A program made the translations under genes and the position numbers. The notes under the pieces are model-generated. The model saw nothing but the letters and a program-made list of their open reading frames with translations, was not told the DNA's origin and did no database searches. Positions 6,837 to 61,968 of a DNA stretch of 64,000 bases are shown here, one piece after another (within the stretch, counting starts at the first letter, position 1; each line of letters opens with the position of its first letter). This stretch comes from Geobacteraceae bacterium (lineage in GTDB: Bacteria; Desulfobacterota; Desulfuromonadia; Geobacterales; Geobacteraceae): the NCBI GenBank assembly GCA_009773645.1, contig WSYB01000018.1:117452-181451 (forward strand). The letters run 5' to 3'.

Positions 6837-7772
6837 TCAGGGGGTGTGCCCGTGTTTTTCCCTTCTTGGTGCGATGGTGACCGACGTGACGACCGATATG
6901 GCCAGGACCCCGATGATGACACCGAGGGAGAAGTAGATGGGGATGTGGTATACGTCGGTCAGGAGCATTTTCGCGCCGACGTAGGCGAGGATGAATGATA
7001 CCCCCAGCTTCAGGTAGACGAACATCTCCATGACGTTGGCCAACAGGTAGTAGAGGGACCGTAAGCCCATGATGGCGAAGACGTTGGACGTATAGACGAT
7101 AAACGGGTCTCTGGTTACGGCCAGCACCGCCGGAATGGAGTCCACGGCGAAGATGACGTCGGAGGACTCCACCACCAGCAGGGTGAGGAAGAGGGGGGTG
7201 GCCGCAAGGATTCCCCCCTTTTTGATGAAAAACCTGTCGTCCCGCACCCTTTTGGTGATGGGGACAAACCGCCGGACCACTCTCACCAGCAGGTTCTTCT
7301 CCGGCTCGATCTTTTCCTCCCCGCCGAACGCCATCTTGAAACCGGTGATGATGAGTATCCCGCCGAACACGTAGATCATCCAGTGGAACCTTTCGATCAG
7401 TTCTATCCCCACCAGTATGAAGACCGCCCGCATCACCAGGGCGCCGATGATCCCCCATTTGAGGATCTTCGGTTGATGGGCCTTGGAGATGTGGAAGTAG
7501 GAGAAGATCATGATGAAGACGAAGAGGTTGTCCACCGAGAGAGATTCCTCGATGAGGTAACCGGTAAAGAACTCCAGGGCCTTGGTCGGCCCCATGGAGA
7601 AATAGATCCAGACGTTGAAGGCGAGTGCCAGCGACACCCAGACCAGTGTCCAGGCGAGCGCCTCGCGGAAGCTGATCGCGTGGCTCTTCCTGTTGAAGAC
7701 CCCCAGGTCGAGGACGAACATTACGGCGATGACAACGCTGAAGCCGAGCCACATCATGGTTTGAGCGGACAT
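6837..7772 (-). CDS. TerC family integral membrane protein
   Basis: A 311-residue TerC/Alx-type protein with about nine membrane helices. Acidic residues inside helices (VLDLGVFN, LSVDNLFVF, VFAVDSIPAVLAVTRDPF) form the metal-binding pattern of the family, which exports Mn2+ in E. coli Alx and in Bacillus. It lies downstream of the UPF0182 gene on the same strand and may belong to the manganese-responsive transcript that starts near 12608. Confidence 0.92.
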   Translation of the reverse strand: MSAQTMMWLGFSVVIAVMFVLDLGVFNRKSHAISFREALAWTLVWVSLALAFNVWIYFSMGPTKALEFFTGYLIEESLSVDNLFVFIMIFSYFHISKAHQPKILKWGIIGALVMRAVFILVGIELIERFHWMIYVFGGILIITGFKMAFGGEEKIEPEKNLLVRVVRRFVPITKRVRDDRFFIKKGGILAATPLFLTLLVVESSDVIFAVDSIPAVLAVTRDPFIVYTSNVFAIMGLRSLYYLLANVMEMFVYLKLGVSFILAYVGAKMLLTDVYHIPIYFSLGVIIGVLAISVVTSVTIAPRREKHGHTP

Positions 7773-17954: not shown

Positions 17955-18030
17955 TAACGACAATACTAAACCACCCGCGAGGGTGGGGCGGAAAGCCCAC
18001 AGGGTCTCACTGAGACAGCCGGGTTGCCGA
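17955..18030 (+). ncRNA. GEMM-I riboswitch, cyclic AMP-GMP-like Geobacter type
   Basis: The sequence has the GEMM-I core: ACTAAACCACCCGCGAGGGTGG (a GNRA-like GCGA loop), then GGGCGGAAAGCC, then a second arm with GGGTCTCACTGAGACAGCC and GGGTTGCCGA. In c-di-GMP-I RNAs the ligand-contacting position before AAACC is G; here the local sequence CTAAACC suggests A, the change tied to 3',3'-cGAMP sensing in Geobacter. A terminator overlaps its 3' side. The downstream gene encodes a cytochrome c lipoprotein, the usual target class in Geobacter. Confidence 0.88.
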
Positions 18031-18074
18031 ATTATCTTAACCAGATATGACGCGACCCGGCTGTCTTTTTTTTT
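18014..18074 (+). terminator. Terminator of the first GEMM riboswitch
   Basis: GACAGCCGGGT (18014-18024) pairs with ACCCGGCTGTC (18055-18065), followed by nine Ts. The 5' arm is part of the aptamer, so ligand binding should prevent the terminator and switch the downstream gene on. Confidence 0.88.
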
Positions 18075-28894: not shown

Positions 28895-29461
28895 TTGAGA
28901 AGTGTGCTGATTGCCGATGATGAATCAATCATAAGGATGAGCCTAAAAAATAAGCTGAAGGAGCTGGGCTTTGATGAAATCATGGAGTGCGGCGACGGCG
29001 AGACCGCAGTTTCCATGGCGCTCTCCCGCCTTCCCGACATTGCCATCCTGGATGTCGCCATGCCCAAAAAGGACGGCATAACCGCCGCCCGTGAGATCAG
29101 GCAGAAACTGAAGATCCCTATCTTGCTCCTTACGGCCAGTCACGACCCGGATACGGTCAAGAGGGCAAAACAGGCCGGAATTGCCGCATTTCTGGTCAAG
29201 CCGTTGCGGGATCAGGACCTGTGGCCCGCCATCGAGCTTGCCTTTGCCCATGCAGACGAGGTGGAAGCCCTCAAGGAACAGGTTGAGGACCTCAAGGACA
29301 CCCTGGAAAGCAGGAAGGTCATCGAGAAGGCGAAAGGGGTGCTGATGCGGACCCAGGGACTTTCCGAGCCGGAGGCGTTCCGCAAGATGCAGAAGCTGGC
29401 CATGGACAAAAGGAAGAGTCTGCGCCAGATCGCCGAGGCGATTTTATTGACCGAATCGTGA
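28895..29461 (+). CDS. gnfR: ANTAR-domain response regulator / antiterminator (GnfR-like)
   Basis: A 188-residue two-domain protein. The receiver domain (1-120) has acids DDES at 8-11, the phospho-acceptor Asp in DIAILDVAMPKKDG (about 53) and Lys in FLVKPLRDQD. The ANTAR RNA-binding domain (about 125-188) includes LESRKVIEKAKGVLM and KMQKLAMDKRKSLRQIAEAI. In Geobacter sulfurreducens GnfR, of this architecture, antiterminates nif leaders. The start is TTG after AAGGCGG. No kinase gene (GnfK) is adjacent. Its presumed RNA targets are the hexaloop leaders of nifH, nifEN, nifB and nifV in this window. Confidence 0.88.
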   Translation: MRSVLIADDESIIRMSLKNKLKELGFDEIMECGDGETAVSMALSRLPDIAILDVAMPKKDGITAAREIRQKLKIPILLLTASHDPDTVKRAKQAGIAAFLVKPLRDQDLWPAIELAFAHADEVEALKEQVEDLKDTLESRKVIEKAKGVLMRTQGLSEPEAFRKMQKLAMDKRKSLRQIAEAILLTES

Positions 29462-29598: not shown

Positions 29599-30600
<1,002 letters not shown>

Positions 30601-40556: not shown

Positions 40557-40592
40557 GAGTAGGTTGCATCACGAATTTTTCTGAAGTCACTT

Positions 40593-40636
40593 TGGCAAAG
40601 GCGCCACCCATTCCGCAGAATGGGGCGCTTTTTTTG
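40593..40636 (+). terminator. ANTAR-type attenuator in the nifEN leader
   Basis: TGGC-AAAGGC-GCCA (40593-40606) is a hexaloop hairpin with A1 and G4. It overlaps the terminator GCGCC-ACCCATT...AATGGGGCGC plus seven Ts. No clear first hexaloop hairpin is seen upstream. Confidence 0.8.
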
Positions 40637-40676
40637 TTTCAGACAGGGACCGGGCATCCGGTTCCCGAGGTGTTCA

Positions 40677-43430
40677 ATGGCACGACCAGACTATTACGAC
40701 GCTCCCGAATGCGAAACCCACGATGCGGGCGCCCCCAAGTTCTGCAAGAAATCGGAACCGGGGGAGGGGACGGAACGCTCCTGCGCCTACGACGGTGCCC
40801 GGGTGGTCCTCATGCCGATCACCGATGTGATCCACCTGGTCCACGGCCCCATTGCCTGCGCCGGCAACTCATGGGACAACCGGGGTGCCCGTTCCAGCGA
40901 CTCCCAGCTCTATCGCCGCGGCTTCACCACCGAAATGCTGGAAAACGACGTGGTGTTCGGCGGGGAGAAAAAGCTTTACAAGGCGATCCTGGAGCTGGCC
41001 GAACGCTACAGTCCGAAGGCGATCTTCGTCTATGCCACCTGCGTGACCGCCATGACCGGCGACGACGTAGAGGCGGTCTGCAAGGCGGCGCAGGAAAAGG
41101 TTTCAATGCCGATTATCCCGGTGAATACCCCCGGCTTCATCGGCGACAAGAACATCGGCAACCGCCTGGCCGGCGAGGTGCTGTTCAAGTACGTCATCGG
41201 CACCGCCGAGCCGGAATACACCACCGACTACGACATAAATTTGATCGGGGAATACAACATCGCCGGTGACCTGTGGGGGATGCTCCCCCTGTTCGACCGG
41301 CTCGGCATCCGTATTCTTTCCTGCTTCAGCGGCGACGCCAAGTTCGAGGACCTTCGCTACGCCCACCGGGCCAAGCTGAACGTCATCATCTGCTCCAAGT
41401 CCCTCACCAACCTGGCGAAGAAGATGCAGAAGACTTACGGCATGCCCTACCTGGAGGAGTCGTTCTACGGCATGACCGATACGGCCAAGGGGCTGCGGGA
41501 CATCGCCCGCGCCCTGGACCTGGCGGTGAACGGCCTGGAGAAGACCGTCATGCAGGAGCGGGTGGAGCGGCTCATCGAGGAAGAGGAAGCGAAATGCCGG
41601 GAACGGATCGCTCCCTACCGTGCCCGGCTGGAAGGGAAACGGTCGGTGCTCTTCACCGGCGGGGTGAAGACCTGGTCCATGGTCAACGCCTTGCGGGAAC
41701 TGGGGGTGGAGATCCTCGCCGCCGGGACCCAGAACTCGACACTGGAAGACTTCTACCGGATGAAGGCTCTCATGCACAAGGACGCCCGGATCATCGAGGA
41801 CACCAGCACCGCCGGGCTTCTGGCGGTCATGTACGAGAAGATGCCGGACCTGATCGTGGCCGGCGGAAAGACCAAGTTCCTGGCGCTCAAGACCAAGACG
41901 CCCTTCCTCGACATCAACCATGGCCGCTCCCATCCCTACGCCGGCTATGAGGGAATGGTCACCTTCGCCAAACAGCTGGACCTGACGGTCAATAACCCCA
42001 TCTGGCCGGTCTTGAACGCCAAGGCGCCGTGGGAGAAGAACGCGGGAGAGCTGGCGACCGATGTGGCTGCCGCGGCAAGACACGCCGAGGCGTTCCTGGC
42101 CGAAGACCTCTCCGTCTCCCGGGTGAAGGTGTCCGTAAAGCAGGCGACGGTCAATCCGCAGAAAAATTCTCCCGCATTGGGCGCTACGTTGGCGTACCTC
42201 GGCATCGACCGGATGCTCGGCCTGCTCCATGGCGCCCAGGGATGCTCCACATTCATCCGTCTCCAGCTGTCGCGGCACTTCAAGGAGTCCATTGCCCTCA
42301 ACTCGACGGCCATGAGTGAGGATACCGCCATCTTCGGCGGCTGGGAAAACCTGAAAAAGGGAATCAAACGGGTCATCGACAAGTTTCACCCCGAAGTCGT
42401 GGGCGTCATGACCTCAGGTCTGACCGAGACCATGGGAGACGACGTCCGGAGCGCCATCGTCCACTTCCGCCAGGAAAACCCGGAATATGCGGAGATCCCC
42501 GTCATCCATGCAGCGACCCCCGATTACTGCGGCTCCATGCAGGAAGGGTACGCAGCGGCGGTGGAGGCGATCGTTTCCACCCTCCCTGCGGGGGAAGGGA
42601 TCATCCCCGACCAGGTGAATTTTCTCCCCGGTTGCCATCTGACTCCCGCGGACGTGGAGGAGGTGAAGGAGATCATCGAATCCTTCGGCCTCACTCCCCT
42701 GACCATTCCGGATATCTCCAACGCCCTGGACGGGCACATCGACGACGAGGTGTCACCCCTCTCCACCGGCGGCATTACGGTGGATGAAATCCGTAATGCC
42801 GCCCGGAGCAGCGCTACCATCTATATCGGTGACTCCCTGGCCAAGGCTGCCTTGAAGCTCAAGGAGTCCTTCGGCATACCGGCCTATGGGTTCACCTCTG
42901 CCACCGGTCTGGCCGAGGTTGACCAATTGATGGAAACCCTTTCATCGATTTCCGGCCGGCCGATCCCCGAGAAGCATCGCCGCTGGCGTTCGCGGCTCAT
43001 GGATGCCATGGTGGACAGCCACTATCAGTTCGGTGCCAAGAAGGCGGCCATCGCCCTGGAGGCGGACAACCTCAAGACCATTGCCCGTTTTCTCCACGGC
43101 ATGGGGTGCGAGGTGCAGGCTGCCGTCTCGGCAACGCGGACCCGTGGGCTGGACGGACTGCCGAGCGAAAAGGTCTTTGTCGGTGACTTGGAGGACCTGG
43201 AAGATGCGGCGAAAGGTGCCGATCTCCTGGTGGCCAACAGCAACGGCCGTCAGGCAGCCGGCAAGCTGGGTATCAAGGCCCATCTCAGGGCAGGGTTGCC
43301 GGTTTTCGACCGGCTCGGAGCCCACCACAAGATGTGGGTCGGCTACCGGGGGACTCTGAACCTCCTGTTCGAGACGGCAAATATTTTCCAGGCGAACGCC
43401 AAGGAAGCGCAGAAACTGGCGCATAATTAA
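40677..43430 (+). CDS. nifEN: Fused nitrogenase cofactor scaffold NifE-NifN
   Basis: 917 residues joining NifE (about 1-470) and NifN (about 480-917) in one chain. The NifE half has cluster-ligand Cys residues in SCAYDGARV, HGPIACAGNSW and YATCVTAMTGDD; the NifN half begins VSVKQATVNPQKNSPALGAT and includes HGAQGCSTF. The scaffold receives NifB-co and matures it to FeMo-cofactor. The fusion is known in several Geobacter. Start ATG 40677; weak ribosome site. Confidence 0.97.
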   Translation: MARPDYYDAPECETHDAGAPKFCKKSEPGEGTERSCAYDGARVVLMPITDVIHLVHGPIACAGNSWDNRGARSSDSQLYRRGFTTEMLENDVVFGGEKKLYKAILELAERYSPKAIFVYATCVTAMTGDDVEAVCKAAQEKVSMPIIPVNTPGFIGDKNIGNRLAGEVLFKYVIGTAEPEYTTDYDINLIGEYNIAGDLWGMLPLFDRLGIRILSCFSGDAKFEDLRYAHRAKLNVIICSKSLTNLAKKMQKTYGMPYLEESFYGMTDTAKGLRDIARALDLAVNGLEKTVMQERVERLIEEEEAKCRERIAPYRARLEGKRSVLFTGGVKTWSMVNALRELGVEILAAGTQNSTLEDFYRMKALMHKDARIIEDTSTAGLLAVMYEKMPDLIVAGGKTKFLALKTKTPFLDINHGRSHPYAGYEGMVTFAKQLDLTVNNPIWPVLNAKAPWEKNAGELATDVAAAARHAEAFLAEDLSVSRVKVSVKQATVNPQKNSPALGATLAYLGIDRMLGLLHGAQGCSTFIRLQLSRHFKESIALNSTAMSEDTAIFGGWENLKKGIKRVIDKFHPEVVGVMTSGLTETMGDDVRSAIVHFRQENPEYAEIPVIHAATPDYCGSMQEGYAAAVEAIVSTLPAGEGIIPDQVNFLPGCHLTPADVEEVKEIIESFGLTPLTIPDISNALDGHIDDEVSPLSTGGITVDEIRNAARSSATIYIGDSLAKAALKLKESFGIPAYGFTSATGLAEVDQLMETLSSISGRPIPEKHRRWRSRLMDAMVDSHYQFGAKKAAIALEADNLKTIARFLHGMGCEVQAAVSATRTRGLDGLPSEKVFVGDLEDLEDAAKGADLLVANSNGRQAAGKLGIKAHLRAGLPVFDRLGAHHKMWVGYRGTLNLLFETANIFQANAKEAQKLAHN

Positions 43431-50087: not shown

Positions 50088-50166
50088 ATAAACGACAATA
50101 CTAAACCATCCGCGAGGATGGGGCGGAAAGCCTACAGGGTCTCCATGAGACAGCCGGGTCGCCGAA
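50088..50166 (+). ncRNA. GEMM-I riboswitch, cyclic AMP-GMP-like (second copy)
   Basis: Nearly the same sequence as the copy at 17955: ACTAAACCATCCGCGAGGATGG, GGGCGGAAAGCC, GGGTCTCCATGAGACAGCC, GGGTCGCCGA, with compensatory changes in the first arm (CATCC/GGATG for CACCC/GGGTG). A -35-like TTGACT lies at 50034 with a weak -10. It precedes a secreted subtilisin-like protease. Confidence 0.88.
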
Positions 50167-50199: not shown

Positions 50200-50254
50200 A
50201 TGCCCGGAAACGACGCGGAAGCGTGTGATTCAAACAGGGACGGAGGAAACGAGA

Positions 50255-53529: not shown

Positions 53530-53545
53530 TGGCACGCTTAATGCC
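53530..53545 (+). promoter_or_regulatory. Sigma-54 promoter of nifB
   Basis: TGGCACGCTTAATGCC has GG and GC at -24/-12 spacing. Start predicted near 53556. Confidence 0.88.
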
Positions 53546-53562
53546 TTTACACAGACATACCC

Positions 53563-53626
53563 GATACAAGGAAGTATCCGGAAACAGGCAACGAGGCCCG
53601 GCGGAAATCACTACCGCCGGGTCTTT
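53563..53626 (+). terminator. First ANTAR-type attenuator in the nifB leader
   Basis: Two classical hexaloops: GATAC-AAGGAA-GTATC (53563-53578) and GGC-AACGAG-GCC (53587-53598), both with A1 and G4, separated by 8 nt. The second overlaps the terminator GCCCGGCGG...CCGCCGGGTCTTTTC. This is the clearest dual-hexaloop ANTAR site in the window. Confidence 0.87.
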
Positions 53627-53632
53627 TCAGTT

Positions 53633-53677
53633 CGGCAAAGGCGCTGACCATAAAGGTTCAGCGCCTTTTTTCACGTC
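53633..53677 (+). terminator. Second ANTAR-type attenuator in the nifB leader
   Basis: CGGC-AAAGGC-GCTG (53633-53646) is a hexaloop with A1 and G4 and one G-U pair, overlapping a second terminator (GGCGCTGA...TTCAGCGCC then TTTTTT). It stands just 7 nt beyond the first terminator and has no separate first hairpin. Confidence 0.82.
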
Positions 53678-53697
53678 GTCTGCTCAGGAGGTTAATC

Positions 53698-54558
53698 ATG
53701 GCGAATGCGTGCAATCAGAGAAAAAATATCCAGGGGCATCCCTGTTTCGGCGGCAATCACCACAAGAATGGCCGTATGCATCTGGCGGTAGCTCCCACGT
53801 GCAACATCAAATGCGGCTACTGCTCGCGCCGCCACGACTGCGCCAACGAATCGCGCCCCGGCGTCACCAGTAGGCTCCTCACTCCCCAGGACGCCATCGC
53901 CAAGGTGCGGGAGGTGATGGCCAGTGAAATAACGGGTCCGATCATCAAGGTGATAGGGATAGCGGGACCCGGCGATCCGCTGGCCAACGAGGAGACCTTC
54001 GAGACCTTCCGGCTGGTGGGGGAAGAGTTTCCCCATCTTATCAAATGCATGAGCACCAACGGCCTTCTCCTGCCGGAGAAGATCGACCTTCTCCAGGAAC
54101 TCGACCTGCACAGCCTGACCGTCACCATCAACGCCCTCGATCCGGAGGTCGGCGCCAAGATATACAGCCATATTCTCTATCACGGGAGACGATACGCCGG
54201 AGAAGAAGCGGCAAGAATCCTGATCTCCAACCAGTTGGAAGGATTGAGAAAGGCTGCCGGGTACGGCATGACCATCAAGGTGAACACGGTTCTCATCCCC
54301 GGTGTAAACGACGACCAGGTGCCGCTCATCGGGTTGAAAGTGAAGGAGCTGGGGGCATTTGTCATGAACGTGATGCCGCTCATCCCCCAGGCGGACTTTG
54401 CGGATGTTGTCCCTCCTGCCCCGGAACGGCTTGAAGAGGTGCGCAGGGCCAACGAAAAGATCATCGGCCAGTTCAAGCATTGCCGGCAATGCCGGGCAGA
54501 CGCCGTCGGCCTGATCGGTCAGGACGTCAAATTTGCCGAGGCGGGGTGCGCGATTTAA
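53698..54558 (+). CDS. nifB: NifB radical SAM FeMo-cofactor synthase (short form)
   Basis: A 286-residue radical SAM enzyme that builds NifB-co (the 8Fe-9S-C core). Cys35, Cys39 and Cys42 (CNIKCGYC) bind the SAM cluster; HPCFGGNHH near the start and CRQCRADAVGLIGQD near the end supply ligands for the other clusters. It lacks the C-terminal NifX-like domain of long NifB proteins; such a domain is encoded separately at 44461. Strong AGGAGG site. Followed by a GNAT gene. Confidence 0.96.
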   Translation: MANACNQRKNIQGHPCFGGNHHKNGRMHLAVAPTCNIKCGYCSRRHDCANESRPGVTSRLLTPQDAIAKVREVMASEITGPIIKVIGIAGPGDPLANEETFETFRLVGEEFPHLIKCMSTNGLLLPEKIDLLQELDLHSLTVTINALDPEVGAKIYSHILYHGRRYAGEEAARILISNQLEGLRKAAGYGMTIKVNTVLIPGVNDDQVPLIGLKVKELGAFVMNVMPLIPQADFADVVPPAPERLEEVRRANEKIIGQFKHCRQCRADAVGLIGQDVKFAEAGCAI

Positions 54559-61889: not shown

Positions 61890-61951
61890 CAGACAAGGTG
61901 TTTGGGAAAACGGCAACGAAGCCCCGCGATAAAGAGATCGCGGGGCTTTTT
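61890..61951 (+). terminator. ANTAR-type attenuator in the nifV leader
   Basis: GGC-AACGAA-GCC (61912-61923) is a hexaloop with A1 and G4, overlapping the terminator GCCCCGCGAT...ATCGCGGGGCTTTTT. A first hairpin CAGAC-AAGGT-GTTTG upstream is less regular (5-nt loop). Confidence 0.83.
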
Positions 61952-61968
61952 GGTCGGAAGGGGGCGCT

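Follow-up and report, generated by a model that had tools for sequence, protein, structure and literature searches.

A nifB leader with two predicted ANTAR-type terminator gates in series in a Geobacteraceae genome

For Geobacter sulfurreducens, antitermination of the nif genes by GnfK/GnfR was reportedly described by Ueki and Lovley in 2010, with promoters that are followed by terminators. The gnfK and gnfR genes are listed as those of a nitrogen-fixation kinase and its response regulator (PMC7962754). For EutV, both hexaloop hairpins are needed, with a linker of 5-12 nt between them (PMC3369931; PMC8934654). Linkers of 3 or 14 nt cut induction sharply (PMC3369931), and antitermination was lost with a 20-nt extension (PMC8934654). 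In the crystal structure the EutV dimer binds one hairpin at a time, though both are needed, and to what extent single hexaloops act was left open by the authors (PMC8934654). In other bacteria, a nif ANTAR regulon was predicted for Pelobacter carbinolicus, and 13 ANTAR attenuators in six transcription units were assigned to Desulfotomaculum acetoxidans (PMC3369931). Tandem riboswitches are arranged in series as well, and independent gates were proposed to give a steeper response there (PMC9481103).

This paper concerns the nifB leader in a stretch of 64 kb, called the window, from a Geobacteraceae genome of 4.74 Mb (G000). The window as a whole contains nifHDK, nifEN, a nifX-like gene, nifB and nifV; nifH, nifD and nifK were named from gene order and sequence, without a family search. 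NifB matched positions 6-280 of the NCBIfam profile TIGR01290 with 338.3 bits, slightly below the cut-off (343.65), a value that applies to a profile of 441 positions. Promoters of the sigma54 type are recognized by a -24/-12 motif at a characteristic spacing to the start site, from which the transcript start of nifB was predicted (Table 1). The longest reading frame of nifEN begins within its own leader terminator (window positions 40620-40679); since the NifEN profile match starts at residue 20, the ATG of 40677 is the likelier start. Rfam at gathering thresholds returned only two c-di-GMP-I riboswitches for the window. The nifB leader is probably a two-stage transcription attenuator under a single ANTAR antiterminator of the GnfR type.

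Table 1. Positions of leader elements, genes and riboswitches in the window
Feature	Position	Strand	Description
c-di-GMP-I riboswitch	17955-18031		47.1 bits (Rfam)
gnfR-like response regulator gene	28895-29461	+	ANTAR domain 29285-29446 (PF03861, E 3.5e-23); presumed antiterminator
nifH leader	29599-29674	+	P1 GAATAC-GCCGCA-GTATTC (loop position 1 is G, not A), P2 loop AAAGGC, one terminator
nifEN leader	40592-40637	+	lone P2-type hexaloop AAAGGC, one terminator; no P1 seen by eye
c-di-GMP-I riboswitch	50090-50166		41.5 bits (Rfam); precedes a serine-protease-like gene at 50225
sigma54-type promoter of nifB	53530-53544	+	sequence motif TGGCACG-CTTA-ATGC; predicted transcript start near 53556
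P1 hexaloop hairpin (nifB)	53563-53578	+	GATAC-AAGGAA-GTATC; fold -3.1 kcal/mol; presumed recruitment hairpin
P2 hexaloop (nifB)	53587-53598	+	GGC-AACGAG-GCC; fold -2.7 kcal/mol; overlaps T1
Terminator T1 (nifB)	53593-53627	+	arms 53593-53604/53614-53625; U-tract UCUUUU 53622-53627
P2' hexaloop (nifB)	53632-53647	+	UCGGC-AAAGGC-GCUGA; fold -4.9 kcal/mol; overlaps T2; without own P1
Terminator T2 (nifB)	53637-53671	+	arms 53637-53649/53655-53668; U-tract UUUUUU 53666-53671
Ribosome binding site (nifB)	53686-53691	+	AGGAGG; sequence
nifB	53698-54558	+	286 aa, radical SAM part only
nifV leader	61912-61952	+	P2 loop AACGAA, one terminator

The gnfR-like gene lies immediately ahead of nifH and is the sole ANTAR match in the genome, and an ANTAR gene was identified in 46 of the 48 genomes of the family. 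The GnfR-like protein matched the M. tuberculosis antiterminator Rv1626 (1s8n) with an E value of 1e-48 and EutV (6wsh) with 2.2e-33, the protein names of both structures being taken in part from PMC8934654. Among the RNA-contact residues of EutV listed in PMC8934654, R142, K143, K147, K149, E160, M172 and R175 are kept in GnfR (by alignment, with an offset of two), and four are changed, namely Y164 to F, R168 to Q, N173 to D and R177 to S.

In the nifB leader the elements follow each other in the order sigma54-type promoter, P1, the overlapping P2 and T1, the overlapping P2' and T2, ribosome binding site and nifB. P1, P2 and P2' all have A at loop position 1 and G at position 4. The linker between P1 and P2 is 8 nt long and thus within the 5-12 nt range given in PMC3369931. 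T1 folds with -23.1 kcal/mol (z -5.4) and T2 with -20.1 kcal/mol (z -6.1), and none of 200 shuffled sequences was equally stable in either case. The P2' loop (53637-53642) lies inside the span of T2, and in each gate hexaloop hairpin and terminator exclude each other by their overlap. In its loops, its linker, its terminator overlap and the presence of an ANTAR gene in the genome, P1-P2-T1 agrees with the dual-hexaloop type and is by anatomy an ANTAR dual-hexaloop attenuator, for which binding and antitermination are predicted. The five-base top of T2 (ATAAA) was rejected as a second loop, since the hexaloop AAAGGC sits at the base of T2. The first-pass annotation had placed two terminators in series before nifB, each with a hexaloop, and this is borne out by sequence, folds and the scan described below. 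Its view of the second unit is right in that T2 has a hexaloop of its own in P2'; that this unit lacks a P1 had been overlooked.

Hexaloops with A1 and G4 and at least 3 stem pairs were sought on both strands of the window wherever they share sequence with the 5' arm of a terminator hairpin that has a U-tract and folds at -10 kcal/mol or lower; these criteria were chosen after the leaders had been seen. The scan returned exactly five units, each of them on the + strand and in front of a nif gene, at 29636 (nifH), 40597 (nifEN), 53590 and 53637 (nifB) and 61915 (nifV), with energies of -18.9 to -23.9 kcal/mol. In 100 runs with first-order Markov sequences that match the window in composition, 210 units arose at the -10 kcal/mol cut-off, a rate of 2.1 per 64 kb; five units therefore exceed chance only 2.4-fold, and their number alone is weak evidence. 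A smaller control of 30 runs at a lenient cut-off gave a mean of 2.0. At -18 kcal/mol or lower, the Markov control gave 21 units in 100 runs, or 0.21 per 64 kb, against five real ones. It had also been noted that the other nif leaders have a single unit, and within the window this is the case for nifH, nifEN and nifV.

A looser pattern gave 52 matches in the whole genome and 38 in the reversed control. The only one beyond the window units that was judged real by eye is a candidate ANTAR leader near base 7062 of contig C1 (L191), where a sigma54-type promoter, a P1 with loop AACGTT, a P2 with loop AAGGGC and one terminator were identified at 6930-7100. Three further matches were viewed in context and rejected, those on C3 and C76 as hairpins without a promoter and the one on C50 since it looks coding.

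Leaders were read at 80 named NifB loci (the sequence of L075 begins with nifB, without a leader) and in the genomes of the family, where NifB was found in 46 of 48 and 45 leaders were readable (the contig of G044 stops at nifB). A double nifB leader is present in nine of these 45, from seven genera: G000, G003, G007 (Geomobilimonas luticola, L004), G009 (Geobacter sp. AOG1, L008), G032 (L009), G034, G035 (L002), G036 (L003) and G037. With nine such genomes, T2 as a peculiarity of the source genome was ruled out. T2 is missing from the other 36. In the first-pass annotation, absence of the second hairpin from close relatives had been named as the result that would speak against the double arrangement; all five of the closest relatives by NifB (L002, L004, L083, L003 and L008, 84-87% identity) carry the hairpin. 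It is missing, as part of the double leader, in L005, L006 and L007, whose NifB is 83% identical. In L002 the P2' stem is broken, with 2 bp, and the P2 stem has 1 bp; with stems this short, the gates there may have degenerated to simple terminators.

All eight double-leader relatives examined have a draG-like gene ahead of nifB (in one of them the fetched sequence stops within it), which indicates that the nifB sites correspond across the double-leader genomes. A NifB tree with 85 rows calls for four or more changes in the trait, and parsimony fits an early gain with losses or several gains; judged from this tree, the double leader appears to have been lost or gained several times. This patchy distribution would suit a T2 that is the decaying relic of an older leader with little present role, as would the broken P2' of L002 and, in L006, a possible P2' remnant seen by eye that is joined to the ribosome binding site. 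The sequence of P2'-T2 is, however, near-invariant over seven genera, with NifB identities down to 75%, and a relic is the least probable of the explanations considered here, with a small chance of being right.

A covariance model (R1) of P2'-T2, built from T2 of the window and eight others, matched 11 of the 48 family genomes with at least 47 bits, namely the nine double-leader genomes, G008 and G010; T2 of the window scores 64.4 bits. In G008 and G010 the match (57.5 and 55.1 bits) lies at a site near etfB (L241, L242) where the promoter motif and T2 are kept and T1 has decayed. Neither nifB nor an acetyltransferase-like neighbour was found within the 3 kb fetched at this site, and nifB of both genomes is located elsewhere, with a single-unit leader. 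In the comparison of these remnant sites, the rows L250 and L258 are uninformative, the anchor lying inside a coding sequence.

Among the nine leaders, the P2' core TTCGGCAARGGCGC is retained in eight, as is the 5' arm of P2' (TCGGC), although it lies outside the stem of T2. In the terminator form, pairs are formed in 97.5% (P1), 92.3% (T1) and 93.9% (T2) of the cells. Two-sided changes were found in 9 of the 28 pairs of P1, T1 and T2 (three in P1, which has five pairs, four in T1 and two in T2); shuffled data gave a mean of 3.5, and nine was reached in 1 of 500. Slid controls formed pairs in 53.1% of the cells or less, a comparison that is biased towards the real structure since the window row served as reference. 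In the antiterminator form, P2' pairs are formed in 95.6% of the cells, with no two-sided change among the P2' pairs of the nine leaders; all changes of this form fall in P1, and its score was matched by 17 to 20 of 500 shuffles (430 of 500 for further pair types). Pairing of P2' is thus consistent with the alignment and unproven by covariation. As two-sided change is zero, P2' may be conserved for its sequence rather than for its pairing.

The lack of two-sided change in P2' is also what would be expected if T2 were a constitutive terminator, an unregulated back-up against read-through with P2' as a by-product of the stem sequence, and the survival of the unit in G008 and G010, where nifB is gone and T1 decayed, points the same way. 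Such a reading is improbable, though a little less so than that of a relic. A strong unregulated terminator would hold nifB low in cells that need it, the retained arm TCGGC is no part of the T2 stem, and within the window such units occur in nif leaders only.

For the two-stage attenuator, the following course of events is proposed. From the sigma54 promoter, RNA polymerase would transcribe P1 and P2 and then reach T1. Without active GnfR, T1 would fold and transcription would stop; an active GnfR dimer would be captured on P1 and hold P2, so that the base of the T1 stem is removed and the polymerase continues. P2' would follow no more than some ten nucleotides after the T1 stem, and at T2 the choice would be repeated: a P2' held by GnfR would take the 5' arm of T2, and otherwise T2 would end transcription. 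In this way nifB would be made only when both gates open. We infer GnfR binding, termination and the order of events from the arrangement of the elements; anatomy and conservation support the presence of two gates in series. Should the gates be independent and leak with a and b, the uninduced read-through would by simple arithmetic be a times b. The lower leak and the steeper response would follow only if this independence holds, and with one GnfR dimer handed from P2 to P2' a steeper response need not follow.

How P2' could work without its own P1 has to be considered separately. No P1 hexaloop was found 5-12 nt upstream of P2', the nearest hexaloop being P2 at 33 nt. The distance between P2 and P2' is 27-34 nt in all nine double leaders, and the P1-P2 linkers are 6-8 nt in the seven in which a P1 with a six-base loop was detected; G003 has no P1, and G037 has, by eye, a stem with a seven-base loop. 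The P1 loop begins with G instead of A in L083, L003, L009 and the nifH leader of the window. Either a single hexaloop would be enough for P2', or P2 would recruit across the folded upper part of T1.

In the second case one GnfR dimer would go from P1 to P2 and on to P2', with P2 as the recruitment hairpin of P2' and the folded upper T1 spanning most of the distance, and the second gate would check the continued presence of GnfR without a fresh decision. A stepwise hand-over from P1 to P2 was proposed by Walshe et al. (PMC8934654). Formation of P2 still allows part of T1 to fold in each of the nine leaders, as a remnant of -9.3 to -13.5 kcal/mol (in the window its loop has 9 nt and is no hexaloop). 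P2' then lies 7-10 nt beyond the beginning of the U-run, to which 2-4 unpaired nucleotides of the arm are added, a distance close to the P1-P2 linkers of 6-8 nt. This short distance may be mere compactness, and a nearby upstream hexaloop seems unneeded where P2'-type units stand alone, as before nifEN, with similar ones in L063, L111 and L123. Such a relay is rather unlikely, if better placed than a constitutive or decaying T2.

For the two-stage attenuator with a P2' that acts on its own, these lone units suggest that such a unit can serve alone. In L063, L111 and L123, from another genus, the sole unit of the nifB leader has the P2'-like loop AAAGGG, and in L063 a P1-like hairpin is present far upstream; the R1 model at E 0.01 found the L063 unit (G043), not those of L111 or L123. 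In a larger set of nifB leaders (the window and 79 loci), 30 of 80 have only 4-8 nt between the expected start site and the P2 stem, which leaves no space for any P1 (L026, L028-L030, L035, L036, L039-L045, L049-L052, L054, L056-L059, L064, L067, L069-L072, L077 and L081). In the same set 31 leaders have room and 17 received no call, with start sites inferred from the promoter motif; L012 and L019, in which P1 had been mistaken for P2, were excluded from the no-room count. Of the 30 no-room loci, 22 encode a GnfR relative some 1.1-1.6 kb upstream of nifB, and all 30 leaders are candidate single-hexaloop ANTAR attenuators.

A second group of nifB copies (L016, L022, L078, L079, L080, L128 and L129) has another leader in the last 80 nt ahead of the gene, and by eye this leader seems conserved. 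A small hairpin, in most of them CCAG-ATAAA-CTGG or CTGG-ACAAA-CCGG, adjoins a strong terminator of the GGAGGCC...GGCCTC type, and the usual A1/G4 hexaloop is missing. This looks like a different attenuator.

A more general proposal is that in Geobacterales an ANTAR regulator needs just a single hexaloop, without a recruitment hairpin, to open terminators, and that nifB combines two gates in series, one with a dual and one with a single hexaloop; one dimer might move along P1, P2 and P2'. It is put forward tentatively, with the chances somewhat against it. If it were true and one dimer were passed along, one capture event would license two terminators.

Double leaders were also searched for beyond nifB. 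Over 141 genomes of the order, a tandem pattern matched 12 (one in the reversed control), which by inspection are seven nifB leaders, two nifH leaders and three sites without a terminator hairpin; these calls were made by eye, with only G057 viewed in context. A looser pattern matched 22 of the 48 family genomes, against three for the reversed control; among its matches, eight nifB leaders and the nifH leader of G040 look real by eye, the others being repeats or sites without a terminator hairpin. The two double nifH leaders belong to G040 of the family (L215:1440-1585) and to G055 of another family (L225). As in nifB, their second unit has an AARGGC loop, with a U-tract of only three bases in G040. 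These leaders rule out that double leaders are confined to nifB. The double gate had been explained by the first committed step of cofactor synthesis and by harm from unused NifB-co; this rationale is not supported, since 36 family nifB leaders lack T2 and double leaders also precede nifH in two other genomes.

ANTAR control of nif genes and several attenuators in one unit are known, and the back-to-back arrangement with a second unit lacking P1 appears to be new: in the open-licence literature, covered mostly as listings, no description of such units before one gene was found, nor any relevant report on a Geobacter nifB terminator or on tandem terminator-attenuator leaders. With the GnfK/GnfR system reported for G. 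sulfurreducens, the nifB leader shares the pathway and the type of regulator. As in the cases of P. carbinolicus and D. acetoxidans, ANTAR attenuators stand on nitrogenase genes, with more than one attenuator per transcription unit. Compared to EutV/eutP of Enterococcus faecalis (Ramesh 2012, Walshe 2022), it has the same two A1/G4 hexaloop hairpins, an 8 nt linker, a second hairpin that excludes an intrinsic terminator and an ANTAR response regulator in the genome, and differs by a third hexaloop and a second terminator that follow directly, without a P1 of their own. Since gates with and without P1 stand behind one promoter and presumably under one regulator, the question of single hexaloops could be tested inside one RNA. 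The pseudo-cooperative tandem riboswitches of PMC9481103 likewise consist of two like attenuators in series that the polymerase reads in turn. Two expression platforms are also present before nifB, and a shared signal is suggested by the lone ANTAR gene; the sensor is a metabolite aptamer in the riboswitches and would be a hairpin-binding protein here. The nifB leader may also be a naturally occurring counterpart of tandem riboswitches that is run by a protein, and by this analogy leak and steepness with one and with two gates could be compared by single loop-base changes.
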